Assembly: GCA_015486705.1 (NCBI GenBank)
Contig: WFRG01000066.1
Span: forward strand, 1 to 6,597
From: Hippea sp.
GTDB lineage: Bacteria; Campylobacterota_A; Desulfurellia; Desulfurellales; Hippeaceae
Reading direction: 5' to 3'
DNA length: 6,597 bases
The notes under the pieces were generated by a model that worked only from the letters and a program-made list of their open reading frames with translations, did not search any database and had not been told where the DNA came from. The first letter of the stretch is position 1; every line of letters begins with the position of its first letter. Shown in pieces: positions 95-6,597 of the stretch. The translations under genes and the position numbers were made by a program.

Positions 95-205
95 TTAGTT
101 TCTTTTTATCCATAACACATATCCCTTTTTGAACTTAATAGAGATATTTCGCTTAACTCGTTTATACCTAAACCATTTAGATATACCGCTATTTTTATAA
201 GACAT
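95..205 (-). CDS. possible 36-aa very basic peptide
   Basis: A short frame from ATG at 205 to TAA at 95 encodes MSYKNSGISKWFRYKRVKRN and 16 more residues, about a third of them Lys or Arg. A GGGAGGTG sequence lies upstream, but 17 bases from the ATG, too far for a normal ribosome binding site. The frame ends 17 bases before the start of the truncated gene at 77, so it could be a leader peptide. An AT-rich intergenic region easily gives such a frame by chance, and I hold this call weakly. Otherwise 78-280 holds nothing I can name. Confidence 0.2.
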   Translation of the reverse strand: MSYKNSGISKWFRYKRVKRNISIKFKKGYVLWIKRN

Positions 206-280
206 AAAAACTGTTTATATACACCTCCCTTTGAGAGACTATTATTCTTTACTTCTTTTAGTGTTCAGTGACATATTAAC

Positions 281-505
281 TTAATCTTCCTTAAACTCCT
301 CAAGCCACGAGAAAAGCTTTCCTTCTTTTATTTCTCTCTCAAGGTTTTTCTTGAGCCTCTCTACCCACTCCTCATCTGACAGGTCAAAATCTTCTTTATA
401 CTCTCCGTGTGCTTTCGCTAATAGTATATCTTCCTGAATTTCTCTGAGCTTTTCTCTGTCCCTTTCACTCCAGTATTCTACAGGAAAGTCAAGAATTTTT
501 CCCAT
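281..505 (-). CDS. small acidic hypothetical protein (74 aa)
   Basis: Last complete gene of the rep operon. From ATG at 505 it encodes 74 residues, beginning MGKILDFPVEYWSERDREKL, charged and apparently all helical, with many Glu and Asp towards the C-terminus (ends SWLEEFKED). There is no signal peptide or membrane segment. I do not recognise the family. Size, acidity and position in a plasmid operon would suit an antitoxin or a DNA-mimic-like accessory protein, but no partner toxin is visible. A run of eight G lies six bases before this ATG and would be the only ribosome binding site. The alternative start, GTG at 532, would overlap the nuclease gene by 8 bases and add nine residues, two of them Gly encoded by the G run. 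I prefer the ATG. Confidence 0.65.
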   Translation of the reverse strand: MGKILDFPVEYWSERDREKLREIQEDILLAKAHGEYKEDFDLSDEEWVERLKKNLEREIKEGKLFSWLEEFKED

Positions 506-511
506 GAAAAA

Positions 512-519
512 CCCCCCCC
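512..519 (-). repeat. G8 homopolymer at the start of the 281-505 gene
   Basis: Eight consecutive C on the given strand (G on the coding strand) sit between the nuclease stop and the ATG at 505, where a Shine-Dalgarno sequence belongs. If the GTG at 532 is used, the run is coding and a one-base slip would shift the frame. Confidence 0.6.
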
Positions 520-524
520 TGCTC

Positions 525-1088
525 TCACTCACACAAACACTCCATAATCTCTCTATTCTCGCCCCACAATCCTTTTCTCTCCACTTTCGCCTCTTCCGTC
601 AGCCTCTCTAATTTCTCAAACTCTTTCTCACTTAATTTTCTGCTCTTGTGCCCTTTATACTTATACACACAAGCATAGCCGTCCGCCACTTCTTTCTCGT
701 TGTAGTTTGTCCCGTTAGGCAAGATAATAAACGCCAGCGTCCTACCGTAGTATCCTTTTCCCTTTGTTATAACCGTCACCTTCTCTCCTTTATAAAGCAT
801 CGTTTTTGCGTGCTTTGTGGCAAGCAAGCCAAGTCTTCTCATTTGCTTGAAAGTCGTATGGCACATCTCTATGTCCTTGTCCATCTTTCTTGACGGGTAT
901 TCCTCAGGCGTGTCAATGCCGAGCAGTCGAAGCTTAACCCTTTTGCCGTGCATTTTCACCCAAATAGTGTCGCCGTCTGAGATTTTGAGAACGACGGCTT
1001 GGTAGGTGGCGGAGAAGGATACGGTAGAAACAAAAACAAATAAAAAAGTGATTACTAACAATCGTTTAGACGTAATTACCTCATACAT
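525..1088 (-). CDS. secreted staphylococcal-nuclease-like (thermonuclease) protein, 187 aa
   Basis: SNase-family nucleases (OB fold) cut DNA and RNA in a calcium-dependent way. Family marks read from the sequence: SDGDTIWV (residues 37-44), then RLLGIDTPEE (54-63), which aligns with the Arg35, Asp40, Thr41 and Glu43 active-site cluster of the S. aureus enzyme. YYGRTLAFI (113-121) supplies the equivalent of Arg87 (here Arg116). GYACVY and AKVERKGLWG near the C-terminus are typical of bacterial homologues. The first 27 residues (Lys8-Arg9, a hydrophobic run 10-26, then SFSA) look like a Sec signal peptide, so the mature enzyme probably acts outside the cytoplasm. Its ATG lies three bases after the stop of the upstream gene, so translation is probably coupled. 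Plasmid-borne secreted nucleases of this type are common; a role in DNA processing, defence or nutrition cannot be chosen from sequence. Confidence 0.92.
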   Translation of the reverse strand: MYEVITSKRLLVITFLFVFVSTVSFSATYQAVVLKISDGDTIWVKMHGKRVKLRLLGIDTPEEYPSRKMDKDIEMCHTTFKQMRRLGLLATKHAKTMLYKGEKVTVITKGKGYYGRTLAFIILPNGTNYNEKEVADGYACVYKYKGHKSRKLSEKEFEKLERLTEEAKVERKGLWGENREIMECLCE

Positions 1089-1475: not shown

Positions 1476-2708
1476 CTATTCTAACAAGGATTTCTTCTCT
1501 TTAGCCTTATTCAATAACCAATCCTCGCTTACTTTATACCATTCGTAACGTTCTTCACCATTCTTATCTTTCCAATCAAGCCTAACAAGATACTCGTCTT
1601 CATATTCTTCCACATGTCCAATCACGGATTCTATTTTCTCTCCATTAACCTCAAGTATATCAACAGCTCCAATAGCGTCTTTTACTGTTATAACATCACT
1701 CTCTATCTTTTCAGCTCCAGCATAATCCTTTTCCAAGGCTCTCTTAAGATACGCTATAAAATCTTTAACCTTACCCGCCTCAAACTTCTTAACAACATAC
1801 TCTATTTGAGCCTTTACATAGTCTTTCCCTTTTTCTTTCAGCCCACCAAGAACAATAGCAATCAAGTTCATCTTCTCTCTAAACTCGCCCGGTATTAAAG
1901 CAAGTAGTTCTTTAGCCTCTTCATTCTCTTTCAACTCATCGCTAATTACCTTTTTAGCTTGTTGTTTAAACTTTAATTGAGCGGGTTTAGGCTTCACATG
2001 AAACTTTATACTCGTATAAGCTTTACCGTCTTTTTTGAGTTCATAAGATACCGTAAAATCGGTGTGCGGATTTTCGCTTATTTCTCTACAAGCAGGATCT
2101 AATACATACTTCCGCAAGTCCGGCATTCTTGGATACTTATTTTCCACACCAAACATCTTTCGAAAATCTCTCATAGACATCTCAGGGACTTTAACTTTCT
2201 CGTAATCTTTTATCAGCTCATAAAGCAAAATAGCATATTTACTTTTTAGTCCTTTAACTACAACCAAGTCTATTTTCGCGAACACTCCATTTTTCTTTAT
2301 CATCGCTTCCCTTACAATTCTGGGTAACGAATAACCAATTACTGTTTTACCAATCTCTTTATCAAAATCGACTTTTACATCATTCAAAACGCTTGATATT
2401 CCCCAAGTTTCACCGTCTTTTCTCAAGTAGTTATACTCAATCTTTATATCAACCAAATCTCTTATTATTTGCTTAAGCCTCTGCTTATTCGGTTTCTCAA
2501 GTTCAAGAGCTCCTATAATCTCAGAAAGCGAAATATTGAAGTAATCCTTTTTTATATCTCTTTTAAGCTCATTTTTAGCTTCAAATAAGAACACGTCATA
2601 TAACTTCCTTTGTAGAGCATTCATATCACCAACTATCGCTATGGCCCCACTCGGCTTCTCAAGTATTACTAAGTGTCTTTTCTTCATCATCTCAAGCAAC
2701 TTACCCAT
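1476..2708 (-). CDS. plasmid replication initiator, Rep_3 / RepB family (410 aa)
   Basis: Initiators of this family bind iterons as monomers, melt the origin and recruit host DnaB, and their dimers repress their own gene. Two winged-helix domains can be traced: about 25-130 (ALQRKLYDVFLFEAKNELKR, then the LSEIIGALEL helix) and about 140-240 (KGLKSKYAILLYELIKDYE, MSMRDFRKMFGV, the DPACREISE helix, then the beta wing SYELKKDGKAYTSIKFHVK). Those motifs are the family signature. Beyond 240 is an unusually long C-terminal extension: a helical part (about 250-330, including YVKAQIEYVVKKFEAGKVKD) and a small beta-rich tail (340-400). ATG at 2708 is chosen because AAAGGAGG ends seven bases upstream; a TTG 18 bases earlier overlaps that site. 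A consensus promoter and four iterons lie directly upstream, which confirms the role by context. Confidence 0.93.
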   Translation of the reverse strand: MGKLLEMMKKRHLVILEKPSGAIAIVGDMNALQRKLYDVFLFEAKNELKRDIKKDYFNISLSEIIGALELEKPNKQRLKQIIRDLVDIKIEYNYLRKDGETWGISSVLNDVKVDFDKEIGKTVIGYSLPRIVREAMIKKNGVFAKIDLVVVKGLKSKYAILLYELIKDYEKVKVPEMSMRDFRKMFGVENKYPRMPDLRKYVLDPACREISENPHTDFTVSYELKKDGKAYTSIKFHVKPKPAQLKFKQQAKKVISDELKENEEAKELLALIPGEFREKMNLIAIVLGGLKEKGKDYVKAQIEYVVKKFEAGKVKDFIAYLKRALEKDYAGAEKIESDVITVKDAIGAVDILEVNGEKIESVIGHVEEYEDEYLVRLDWKDKNGEERYEWYKVSEDWLLNKAKEKKSLLE

Positions 2709-2730
2709 TAACTCGCCTCCTTTCAAGTTT

Positions 2731-2940: not shown

Positions 2941-2989
2941 ACAACCCGAGATCCTACCAACTCACCAGCTCCTACCGTAATACAGTCTC

Positions 2990-3283
2990 CCTACCAACCA
3001 AAAGCCGTTGCCTACACCCACCCACCACCCCGTCGTCGTCGTTGTTTTTTTAATTTTTAAGAACAACAAGAAAGAAAAAAAATCGGATACGCTTCGCTTC
3101 ACTTCGTTGTATTTCTCCCCTACCGCTACGAAGAAAACCCAAAGAAGAAATCCTCGCTACACGGGGAGAAATACAACTTCGTTTCGCTATATGGATAAAA
3201 AATCAATATCAATTAAGCGGATGAAGTTTGTTTATTCGATCAGACGCCCTACCCGAATATAGAGCTCCTACCAACCAAAAGCC
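2990..3283 (+). repeat. 17-bp direct repeat at 2990-3006 and 3267-3283
   Basis: CCTACCAACCAAAAGCC occurs identically at both positions, 277 bp apart, bracketing the 15-bp inverted repeat at 3106-3177. Exact copies flanking a segment could mark an insertion or duplication boundary, or could simply be conserved binding sites. Confidence 0.8.
3106..3177. repeat. 15-bp perfect inverted repeat with 42-bp spacer
   Basis: GTTGTATTTCTCCCC (3106-3120) is the exact complement of GGGGAGAAATACAAC (3163-3177). The arms are flanked by several CTTCG motifs. It has no T-run, so it is not a simple terminator. It may be a cruciform, a protein-binding site or the ends of a very small insertion. Confidence 0.7.
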
Positions 3284-3339
3284 TCTTTTCTTGTAAGAGC
3301 AACAAGCAAGATAACACGCCCCCTTTTCCTGTCCCTACC

Positions 3340-3838
3340 AAGCAAATCTTTGTTATTAGCCAAAATATACCGCTATCGCGAAAGGATAGACTTAACTTTA
3401 TACCCAACATAGAGTTACTCAAGCAATCTCTACTTTCAAAAAACTCCCCGCGCACGGCCCTCAAAACGCCCTCAGATTGACAGAAACGCCCCTATTTGCT
3501 CAAAGTCGGGCGGGAGTCGATATATTAATCGAATTTGAAAAACTTGACGCCTTAAAACGCGTTATTTTAGACGTTATAAATCCTCTCGCCCCAGGCGGTC
3601 GGCAAGGAAGGGGGGGGCGTGATCTTTTTTCCCCTTTAAGGAAAGACGCAAGATGCAGTTAACTGCTCTCAATGTCTCTATACTACAAGCACGATAGATA
3701 CAACGATTTCGCACTTTTCAGAAGCAAATTTAACTCCGAAAAAACAACGCAAAACACGGGGTTATTTTTGTTTTAAAATTCAAATAGAACGGCGTTATAT
3801 CAACGTTCTTTAATAACGTGAAAAATGGAGTTATCGAA
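3340..3838. other. non-coding stretch, nothing identified
   Basis: Short frames here lack ribosome binding sites and protein-like composition. The region has mixed base composition, a G8 run at 3610-3617 and a weak CTATC/GATAG hairpin (3373-3389). I see no gene, RNA or mobile element that can be supported. Confidence 0.5.
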
Positions 3839-4407: not shown

Positions 4408-4527
4408 TGTTTAAAAAACGGAGAGAGGGAGAGTTTGGCCTGTAGGTCTTATTCCGTGTTTACACGGGATAGGGCTGTCCCGGGGCTACCAGAGGGAGTG
4501 GCGCCCCTCAAGTACCCGGGACGGGGA

Positions 4528-4561
4528 CCGCCGGATGCACGGAGACGTGCTCGTCCGGTAG
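4528..4561 (+). ncRNA. group II intron domain V (catalytic hairpin)
   Basis: Exactly 34 nt with the domain V plan. The 5' strand is CCGCCGGA-U, the upper stem GCACG with GAGA tetraloop and CGTGC, the two-base bulge TC, then G and the 3' strand TCCGGTAG. The triad position reads CGC (4529-4531), the form used in group IIC introns rather than AGC. The conserved G-U wobble is present (G4530, T4559), as is the U-G pair beside the bulge (T4536, G4553). Oddities: the bulge is UC where AC-like sequences are usual, and the triad C4529 faces A4560, a mismatch. Confidence 0.68.
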
Positions 4562-4600
4562 GGAACGGGGGCTCGCGGCTGGCAACCGCGTTCTACCCAC
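4561..4600 (+). ncRNA. domain VI-like hairpin with branch-point A and 3' splice site
   Basis: GAACG (4563-4567) pairs with CGTTC (4589-4593), with further pairing inside. Then T4594-A4595 are unpaired and CC (4596-4597) can pair back to GG at 4561-4562. A4595 is thus a bulged A on the 3' strand of the first hairpin after domain V, as expected of the branch point; CTACCC resembles bacterial domain VI. Group II introns end in AY: candidates are AC at 4599-4600 or AT at 4602-4603. The second lies 8 nt from A4595, the more usual distance. Confidence 0.5.
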
Positions 4601-4684
4601 TATCAGGCCGAAAAGGCCAAAAGGATACGGGCGACGGGGAAATAGTCTGAGGGTATTTTCATCAGGTTTAGGCCCGCAGGCTCG
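4601..4684 (+). other. predicted exon that back-splicing would release as an RNA circle
   Basis: This is the stretch between the domain VI-like 3' splice site (after 4600 or 4603) and the GTGTG 5' splice site at 4685, so 84 or 81 nt. It folds itself: GGCC-GAAAA-GGCC (4606-4618), TATC/GATA (4601-4604 with 4624-4627) and CGGGC/GCCCG (4628-4632 with 4672-4676). Its last six bases GGCTCG (4679-4684) are the candidate IBS1. No start codon with a ribosome binding site is seen, so it is probably not translated. Confidence 0.45.
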
Positions 4685-5075
4685 GTGTGTATGAAAGGGT
4701 GACGCCCTCGAAAGAGAGGGCTAATCCCCCTGGGTCTTGTCCTGAAAGGGGCAGAGATCCAGCGCGGCGGGGGAGGTATAGGCGGGTAACCGTCTATACT
4801 GACATAGCTCAACCCGATAAAGGCCCGTCGAGACGGAGCGACGGCCAAAGCCCCTACCAAGTAACGCTTGGGAGCTGGGGCGACCGCGTAAGTCCAGCTG
4901 GAGCGGTAGCGAGGCCACAAATCCGATGACCCCATATCTCGAGCCGAATTCCGCAAGGATAGTAGGCAGGGGGCCTCTGTATCCTACCCTCTCCCGTCCT
5001 TTCCTTGTAGGAAGGACATAGGGGAGCAAGAGATATGGGCACAGGAAGCCGGAACAGCTGGATTGACATGCACAC
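4685..5075 (+). ncRNA. domain I of the intron, with 5' splice site and EBS1
   Basis: It starts with GTGTG, the group II 5' consensus GUGYG. Bases 6-9 (TATG, 4690-4693) can pair with CATG at 5067-5070 to close the domain, and an AGGGTGACGCCCT element just after the start resembles the early part of bacterial IIC introns. CGAGCC at 4940-4945 is the exact complement of GGCTCG directly before the splice site and lies at the top of the 4931-4940/5030-5039 helix, where EBS1 is expected. Two hairpins (4956-4985 and 4991-5026) are inserted beyond it, unlike a simple EBS1 loop. Confidence 0.5.
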
Positions 5076-5284
5076 CTAACCCGGGAAGGGCAACCGGTGG
5101 CAGGATTTTCAGAAAGCCGATATGCACCCAAAAAGCCACAAGGCACCTGGGAGCGAGGCTCAATAGAGGCAAGGTATCGGGCAGGGCAGTCTGATACCAA
5201 GGACGGCGGCCGCCAACCGCCATTAAAAGTCCCCTCGAAAGGCCTCACCTTGCACGGTCAAGCTCTTTCCTCTCTCCAACAAAC

Positions 5285-5353
5285 TTTTGGCTATTCCCAA
5301 AAGGAATTAGCCAAAACAAAAAGGATCCTCAAGAGCCCAAAAGGCTCAAGAGG
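5285..5353 (+). ncRNA. two tandem hairpins with identical CAAAA loops
   Basis: First: TTTTGGCTATTCC (5285-5297), loop CAAAA, then GGAA-T-TAGCCAAAA (5303-5316), 13 pairs with one bulged T. Second: CCTC-AA-GAGCC, loop CAAAA, GGCTC-AA-GAGG (5327-5353), 9 pairs around a symmetrical AA/AA internal loop. Neither is followed by a T-run, so they are not typical terminators. They follow the long closing helix of the large RNA by 7 bases and may be its 3' appendage or protect its end. Confidence 0.6.
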
Positions 5354-5572: not shown

Positions 5573-6241
5573 ATGCCCGAAAACGGCTACACGACAGGGA
5601 TTTGGGAATTTGTCGAACTACTACGCCATAGGGTTTCATACGGCTATATTTACTACTATGTTTTTCCTCAGAAAAAACCACAAAAAGACGCCGAAATCTC
5701 GCAATACTACAAGTCAAACTTTAAAAAGTATCAAAGAGTCTACCGCAAGCATGTAAAGAACCTCAGAAATTACTTTTACATGAGATACCAAAACACCGGT
5801 ATCGTTTTAGCCACTGAGGGCAAACCAGACCCGGAGCTCACGCACATCGAACCCTACCTTGTAGATATTCGCCAAAAACCGCTACACCTCAAAGTTTCCG
5901 ATATTACGGAGCTCATAATCCACGCGCAACCGAGGGCCAATAAAAAGACACTCAAGGTCAACGTATATTTAAGCAAAGAGACAATACAAATCATCAAAGC
6001 AAACTTATTACAGGTTTTAAAAGAAAATGCTAACCCCAGTAAGAAAGAACAGAAGCGGGCAAAGGCTAATATAAAACGGGCTTGGCTCATAAACGGCTAC
6101 CCGTCCTTCGCAGGGCTACTCGAACAAAAGAAACAATTACGCTCTTGGTATGTAAAAGAGGCGAGGATAAGAGGTATAAACATTCCTCAAAGCGAGCTCA
6201 AGCTCTCATACTTCAGAAAGAACCGCCTCAAGAAGAATTAA
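5573..6241 (+). CDS. basic protein of unknown function (222 aa)
   Basis: I do not recognise this family. The start is ATG at 5573, preceded by GGAGGTG at a good distance; the frame is open further upstream, to a TTG at 5426, but that stretch lies in hairpins and has no ribosome binding site. The protein is soluble-looking and strongly basic. It has an aromatic N-terminal part (VSYGYIYYYVFPQKKPQK, about 23-40), a Lys/Arg/Tyr-rich helix (SQYYKSNFKKYQRVYRKHVK), a probable beta region (ITELIIHAQPRANKKTLKVN) and basic helices to a KNRLKKN end. That composition suits nucleic-acid binding. There is no reverse-transcriptase, maturase, endonuclease or transposase motif. It sits between the large RNA and a recombinase gene, so it may bind that RNA or the element's DNA; this is inference from position. 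Confidence 0.8.
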   Translation: MPENGYTTGIWEFVELLRHRVSYGYIYYYVFPQKKPQKDAEISQYYKSNFKKYQRVYRKHVKNLRNYFYMRYQNTGIVLATEGKPDPELTHIEPYLVDIRQKPLHLKVSDITELIIHAQPRANKKTLKVNVYLSKETIQIIKANLLQVLKENANPSKKEQKRAKANIKRAWLINGYPSFAGLLEQKKQLRSWYVKEARIRGINIPQSELKLSYFRKNRLKKN

Positions 6242-6382: not shown

Positions 6383-6597
6383 ATGTTGCCAAGAGCGCTA
6401 AACGGCAATTTGGTTTTTTCGGGCAATATCCCCAATTACCTAACAGAAAGCCAGTTAAACAACCTTATAGCTACCTTTCAGGCTTGGTATGACGATAAAA
6501 GCATATCAGATACTAAAAGACGCATAAGAGGCCGCTATTGGCTTGTTTTCCTAACACTTAGGTTTACGGGTGCAAGGATAAGCGAGGTAATAAACAT
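6383..6597 (+). CDS. tyrosine recombinase / integrase, N-terminal part, cut by the window edge
   Basis: Tyrosine recombinases join or resolve DNA at short inverted-repeat core sites. Seventy-one full codons are present from ATG 6383, with GGAAGGAG seven bases upstream. YWLVFLTLRFTGARISEVIN (52-71) is the family's box I; Arg65 is the first catalytic arginine, in the typical TGxRxSE context. The second Arg/His box and the Tyr lie beyond the window. Arg65 comes unusually early: most members have a core-binding domain of about 100 residues first, so this protein has a short N-terminus (about 50 residues), as in FimB/FimE-type enzymes. It follows the 222-aa gene by 141 bp on the same strand. It could resolve plasmid multimers, integrate the element or invert a segment. 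Confidence 0.88.
   Translation, partial: MLPRALNGNLVFSGNIPNYLTESQLNNLIATFQAWYDDKSISDTKRRIRGRYWLVFLTLRFTGARISEVIN

Follow-up and report, generated by a model that had tools for sequence, protein, structure and literature searches.

Circularly permuted (CP) group II ribozymes, also called T-large, are RNAs of about 900 nucleotides (nt) in which the domains (D) of a group II intron occur in the order D5-D6-D1-D2-D3-D4 (Roth et al. 2021, PMC8637638, cited throughout from excerpts). About 290 sequences from several phyla have been reported, examples being those of Thermus thermophilus pTT8 and Polaromonas pPNAP05. In the class consensus, D5 carries an AGC triad, the first base of which is without Watson-Crick pairing, and a UN bulge; GGGCG forms the 5′ splice site and NU the 3′ splice site, and linkers measure 15 to 86 nt. 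An orphan protein, AcpG (TTHC007 family), is linked to the class and is given no homology in these excerpts, and Roth et al. argue that CP ribozymes lack the protein gene of the intron itself. The excerpts propose no biological role for the ribozymes and report that, in the single species examined, no processed form was detected in cells. Among the literature matches listed, which comprise partial texts, the term CP group II, and AcpG in the sense of a neighbor of CP ribozymes, are used only by Roth et al.; the excerpt of PMC11394858 deals with group I introns.

We analyzed a stretch of 6,597 nt from Hippea sp. (contig WFRG01000066.1, assembly GCA_015486705.1), referred to as the window, in which the plasmid DNA at positions 4420 to 5277 very probably encodes a divergent member of this class, as judged by sequence comparison. 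Like CP group II ribozymes, the window RNA has the permuted domain order, a UN bulge in D5, a bulged A in D6, a linker hairpin, a GGGCGAC 5′ splice site, pairing between exon-binding site 1 (EBS1) and intron-binding site 1 (IBS1), an ATAGCT hexanucleotide, and a plasmid location. It differs from them in a CGC rather than AGC triad, in A rather than C as the predicted first base of the circle, in another EBS1 flank, and in an AcpG-like gene that follows it on the same strand and is hardly recognizable by sequence. The core features of the RNA are as follows.

4528 to 4561, forward strand: domain 5, with CGC triad, UC bulge, and GAGA loop (matched by Rfam RF00029 and by covariance models R1 and R2, described below)
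4564 to 4601, forward strand: domain 6; A4595 is bulged and the candidate branch point, and the 3′ splice site follows U4601 (end of the RF00029 match at 4601; aligned D6 ends)
4602 to 4628, forward strand: linker, predicted to form the 27-nt RNA circle; contains hairpin 4606-4609/4615-4618 and, at 4623-4628, IBS1 (GGATAC) (boundary rule; folded hairpin)
4629 to 4640, forward strand: GGGCGACGGGGA, the 5′ splice site, where domain 1 opens (motif shared with 13 Thermus loci and with proteobacterial loci)
4979 to 4984, forward strand: EBS1 (GTATCC), full complement of IBS1, with U4978 facing A4602 as the δ-δ′ pair (single full match)

Evidence for a divergent CP group II RNA

Rfam model RF00029 (group II D5/D6) matched positions 4526 to 4601 with 40.7 bits (gathering score, 40; E = 1.5e-5), the sole gathering-level Rfam match within the window, and D1-type sequence, its motifs placed by alignment with other members, lies downstream of this match. 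Two covariance models were then built with the window excluded. R1, derived from 7 of 13 Thermus RNAs, matched window positions 4523 to 4640 with 32.1 bits (E = 7.9e-8) and the published pPNAP05 RNA with 47.5 bits (E = 3e-10). R2, built on 14 CP group II RNAs other than that of the window, matched the same window positions with 48.6 bits (E = 7.7e-12), and its match extends through the D1 start. Judged by these two models, neither of which contains the window, the match to the class is not chance. Based on the RF00029 match, the D1-type sequence 3′ of D5/D6, and the match to the 14-member model, we conclude that the window RNA is a divergent member of the known CP group II class and not a new class.

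A preliminary description of the window, made from its letters alone, had proposed a circularly permuted group II intron, D5/D6 lying upstream of D1, and had suggested searches with Rfam D5 models and with a permuted model. The RF00029 and R2 matches bear out this proposal and, as a D6-like hairpin follows D5 and D1-type sequence lies downstream, the permuted domain order is correct. The variant class that it offered as an option falls away, and its view of natural permuted introns as rare is overstated given the number of sequences reported (PMC8637638). The window extends the class to a further plasmid family.

Taken alone, the RF00029 match would permit a canonical group II intron that ends at 4601 and carries D1 to D4 upstream of D5. 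This we regard as extremely improbable: R1 and R2, which cover the splice-site motif downstream of D6, match through 4640, the D1 motifs lie downstream, the stretch just upstream of D5 folds as P1 and P2 hairpins, and no intron-encoded reverse transcriptase (RT) gene was recognized among the window open reading frames (ORFs) given to Pfam and NCBIfam. Rfam models gave no D1 match upstream of 4420. The candidate was rejected, as the D1 start at 4629 comes after D6, so that a D1-to-D6 order with terminal splice sites fails. The window RNA resembles canonical introns in D5/D6 sequence and structure, above the gathering score, but differs from them in placing D5/D6 before D1, in reversed and internal splice sites, and in having no RT gene inside.

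Domain 5, domain 6, and the splice sites

The 34-nt hairpin at 4528 to 4561 has the D5 layout first described for it (CGC, G-U wobble, two-base bulge, and GNRA loop) and also matched a D5 descriptor. Specifically, as read from the sequence, the CGC triad occupies 4529 to 4531, with C4529 facing A4560 and a G4530·U4559 wobble; the remaining features are the UC bulge at 4551-4552, U4536·G4553, and the GAGA loop at 4542 to 4545. The bulge had been called divergent but is typical of the class, since class D5 has a UN bulge (PMC8637638). The C·A mismatch in the triad had been pointed out as well; the mismatch itself fits the class, because the first triad base is not Watson-Crick paired there either, but C in place of A is unusual. 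The first base is A in 15/15 other rows with readable D5, and the triad is not strictly fixed in the class, as two of those rows carry AGU. The D6-like hairpin after D5, with its bulged A4595, was also confirmed, and A4595 is the likely branch point.

The Thermus sample consisted of pTT8 and 12 further AcpG-encoding plasmid loci, i.e., 13 of 20 Thermus records with AcpG; 8 were recognized by the D5 descriptor and 5 more by the splice-site motif. Each of these 13 loci carries GGGCGAC-NN-GGA after D5, D6, and a linker hairpin, and the window has the same motif at 4629 to 4640. With CU at 4600-4601 and GGGCG at 4629 to 4633, the window has both class splice sites, and its linker is 27 nt because D1 opens at GGGCG 4629. 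The bounds of the predicted circle, 4602 to 4628, were set by the rule of counting from the D6 end to GGGCG. This rule was checked on pPNAP05, where 32 nt were counted between the D6 end (AAT) and GGGCG, equal to the circle length predicted in PMC8637638.

The preliminary description had instead placed about 85 nt between D6 and a D1-like region opened by GTGTG, which amounts to a D1 start at 4685 and a circle of about 83 nt. GTGTG does resemble GUGYG, with which canonical group II introns begin (PMC8637638), but GGGCGAC-NN-GGA, at 4629 in the window, is conserved across the 13 Thermus loci and the proteobacterial members, and EBS1 at 4979 to 4984 pairs with the six bases directly before 4629. 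The GTGTG start was ruled out on these grounds, and we give it very little credence.

EBS1-IBS1 pairing and proposed splicing mechanism

GTATCC at 4979 to 4984, at an offset of 350, is the only full Watson-Crick complement (6/6) of GGATAC in the following 520 nt. Homologous sites occur at offsets of 302 to 388 in 11 of 15 other members, where they rank among the three best matches with 5 to 6 of 6 pairs; in Gluconacetobacter the pairing is compensated (AACTTC/GAAGTT). Among the other rows, the 15 whose D6 end is readable all have C as first base of the circle, and each of the 11 homologous EBS1 sites has a G directly before it; in the window, A4602 faces U4978, so that the δ-δ′ pair is changed on both sides. 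In random sequence, a full match would arise with P = 0.117 anywhere in 520 nt, with P = 0.008 within offsets 310 to 362, and with P = 0.0012 there with a preceding U, the offset interval having been picked after the homologues were seen.

Modeled on the five members that Roth et al. assayed (PMC8637638), the 2′-OH of A4595 would attack at the 5′ splice site, directly before G4629. C4628, the 3′ end released in this way and held by EBS1, would then attack the 3′ splice site after U4601, yielding a 27-nt circle (4602 to 4628) along with a branched RNA. What is observed is the layout of the sequence; catalysis, branch, and circle are proposed for the window RNA by analogy with those members.

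Several findings weigh against class membership. The window scores low for the class: in a joint R2 search its 48.6 bits were close to the 48.7 bits of a broken Pandoraea member, and the other 14 full matches, which are the same 14 RNAs that built R2, scored 80.6 to 117.8 bits. The D5 triad is CGC, as opposed to AGC or AGU in others. The window EBS1 is without the usual flank, positions 4957 to 4961 can pair with 4980 to 4984 in the fold and thus compete with EBS1, and in 4 of the 15 other members (pTT8, pTA16, Burkholderia glumae, and Pseudoalteromonas) the homologous site lies outside the three best matches. Lastly, an Rfam search for D1 to D4, also suggested earlier, matched no model in the window. 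The published pTT8 CP RNA is likewise unrecognized by Rfam, and the class therefore cannot be delimited by Rfam alone.

The window might hold a degenerate, inactive CP group II RNA that has kept the layout and lost splicing; as the lowest-scoring full-length member, with a C·A mismatch in its CGC triad and an EBS1 possibly hidden in a hairpin, it could be taken for one. We consider this unlikely, given that the RNA retains its D5 helix, its branch A, the motifs of both splice sites, and complete pairing of EBS1 with IBS1 and that the δ-δ′ pair has changed on both sides (A4602/U4978 versus C/G elsewhere).

Fold and further elements of the RNA

The stretch 4629 to 5280 folds better than 20/20 shuffles (z = −6.1), and 4420 to 4640 better than 199/200 (z = −2.8). 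Covariation supports class membership: in a 17-row alignment, 22 of 31 pairs were changed on both sides, compared with 4 to 12 in slid controls, this alignment having been fitted to the structure. Further elements were assigned as listed, with approximate boundaries for D2 to D4.

4420 to 4433, forward strand: 5′ strand of the outer helix, candidate closing of the whole element, with partner 5263 to 5277 (complementarity)
4445 to 4476, forward strand: P1-like hairpin (minimum-energy fold; placed as in the PMC8637638 class model)
4477 to 4522, forward strand: P2-like hairpin, with 8-bp stem 4477-4484/4515-4522 (fold)
4804 to 4809, forward strand: conserved D1 hexanucleotide ATAGCT (A.AGCT in other members)
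5135 to 5139, forward strand: D2 loop bases GCCAC, candidate partner of the P2 loop (fold)
5149 to 5153, forward strand: GGGAG, likely purine-rich J2/3 (aligned with GGGAG of other members)
5236 to 5244, forward strand: CGAAAGGCC, domain 3-like conserved motif resembling the CGAAAG element of several members, in a region of uncertain alignment
5263 to 5277, forward strand: 3′ strand of the outer helix; the element ends here (complementarity)

Within the outer helix, 4420-4428 and 5269-5277 (9 nt) are 100% complementary. The hexanucleotide lies at an offset of 175, and A.AGCT is found at offsets of 198 to 286 in 15 other aligned members. The P2 loop (GUGGC, 4498 to 4502) could pair with GCCAC at 5135 to 5139, and proteobacterial members mostly have GCCAA and UUGGC at the P2 and D2 loops; for the window this loop pairing is suggestive only and could be chance.

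Just 3′ of the ribozyme, a hairpin at 5285 to 5316 has 14-nt arms that are 86% complementary. A below-threshold Rfam match to mir-208 over this hairpin is surely chance.

Relatives of the RNA

Applied to proteobacterial loci, R1 matched L144 and L146 to L149 (E ≤ 4.1e-9), L145 (E = 0.0039), and L151 to L154 (E ≤ 1.4e-7); L143 and L150 went unmatched by R1. R2 matched the L143 plasmid with 71.1 bits. No DNA relatives of the window RNA were found in plasmid and phage collections. In viral contigs, two patterns yielded 100 and 26 stretches; of the nine stretches that contained GGGCGA[CT]..GGA, none was taken for a CP RNA on visual inspection, and R1 matched none of the 18 viral-contig stretches given to it.

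Three of these loci showed arrangements of their own. On Escherichia coli plasmid pA16EC0321-4 (L151), a CP group II RNA (2578 to 2689, reverse strand; 44.3 bits) adjoins an AcpG gene (2986 to 3669, forward strand); AcpG is present in 10 Escherichia plasmid records, of which this is the one examined. Pseudoalteromonas plasmid pMtBL (L152; 4,086 bases) carries a CP group II RNA at 3121 to 3255 (forward strand; 33.7 bits) and an AcpG gene at 110 to 817 (forward strand). In Pandoraea plasmid pPO70-4 (L145), the CP RNA looks split into a D5 part and a D6-to-D1 part (1028 to 1119 and 2482 to 2585), which flank an annotated IS256 transposase gene (1200 to 2465).

The neighboring ORF, AcpG, and a possible maturase origin

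The new part of this analysis, which is testable, concerns the ORF adjacent to the RNA and the idea of a maturase.

5573 to 6241, forward strand: 222-amino-acid ORF, probably a very divergent AcpG, with an RT palm/thumb-like predicted fold (profile match; predicted models)

The ORF starts 296 nt after the element end at 5277, on the same strand, and is thus adjacent to the CP RNA. It shares with AcpG this neighbor, a similar size, a collinear profile match, and the same predicted order of elements, but differs from it in lacking similarity at the level of BLAST or HMMER: BLASTP against pTT8 AcpG was negative, and HMMER gave E = 0.99 for Halomonas AcpG among 3,380 ORFs and E = 0.63 for the window ORF in the reverse search. 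The window-ORF family comprises 57 database proteins, including the window ORF itself; no relatives were found in plasmids by tblastn, or in viral or genome contig collections with peptide patterns. Profile comparison with hhalign improved with the diversity of the AcpG alignment, from E = 0.025 (hhalign probability 2%) at 7 rows to E = 1.3e-4 (187 columns, probability 54%) with the 20-row alignment A5; a Thermus-type AcpG set gave E = 0.016 over 19 columns only. A larger window-family alignment gave a weak, full-length match to AcpG that scored 37.6 and was collinear over 185 to 187 columns, compared with at most 21.4 in 100 column shuffles, at most 28.8 in 100 block shuffles, and 12.3 for the reversed control. 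We consider it probable that the ORF encodes a very divergent AcpG.

AlphaFold2 models were obtained for the window ORF (predicted local distance difference test [pLDDT], 79; other four models, 59 to 46) and for Thermus AcpG P0058 (pLDDT, 91). Both have a common core in the order helix, strand, two helices, five strands, and three helices. For both, the best Protein Data Bank matches in Foldseek and VIA-align were group II intron RTs, and 8 of the 9 top VIA entries for AcpG were group II or G2L4 RTs. The structural matches (e.g., 8t2r, 6me0, and 8h2h), at 7 to 10% identity, cover roughly residues 100 to 425 of group II RTs, and up to residue 526 in 8h2h. We take residues 100 to 425 to be mainly palm and thumb. 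The likeness to these RT/maturases and to Prp8 is thus one of predicted structure, and the evidence for an RT fold in AcpG and the window ORF is borderline. Both proteins differ from group II RT/maturases in being much shorter and in having no YxDD motif and no sequence-level match. Sequence searches gave no RT similarity for either protein and thus no support for a maturase origin. [YF][AVLIMC]DD occurred in 0/57 window-family and 0/81 AcpG proteins, and the looser [YFML].DD in 0/57 and 3/81, respectively.

On balance we lean slightly toward seeing in AcpG a maturase that has shrunk, is dead as a polymerase, and aids folding of the ribozyme. By a similarly narrow preference, it would descend from a group II intron RT/maturase whose gene moved outside on permutation and shrank to palm and thumb, as a bacterial parallel to Prp8, with the window form very divergent. 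It is distinctly possible instead that the 222-amino-acid ORF is unrelated to AcpG, or that AcpG is not derived from an RT and the fold match reflects a common arrangement. The first of these is opposed by the collinear profile match over 185 to 187 columns, with its score above all shuffles, and the second by the first rank of group II intron proteins for both models in Foldseek and VIA-align. No statement of a resemblance between AcpG and RTs was found among the literature matches listed, as far as their excerpts extend. If AcpG is a shrunken maturase, the missing-protein argument of Roth et al. changes, and the class would consist of ribozymes that have a helper protein of their own. Prp8 would then have an independent parallel, a dead RT that serves a permuted self-splicing RNA.

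Plasmid context

The iteron plasmid setting proposed in the preliminary description was borne out by an initiator gene and direct repeats, which mark a plasmid-type contig.

1476 to 2726, reverse strand: Rep3-type initiator gene (PF01051 and PF21205)
2765 to 2862: 22-nt direct repeat in 4.5 perfect copies, located upstream of the Rep3 gene, as in iteron plasmids

The window appears to be a complete contig, since its ORF protein is recorded on one of 6,597 bases; the contig ends have no terminal overlap of 10 to 60 nt. A gene start at 6383 to 6597 (forward strand) runs off the contig and has a weak, below-cutoff match to tyrosine recombinases. At 525 to 1088 (reverse strand), a staphylococcal-nuclease-like gene (PF00565, E = 6.6e-17) has a possible export signal at its start.
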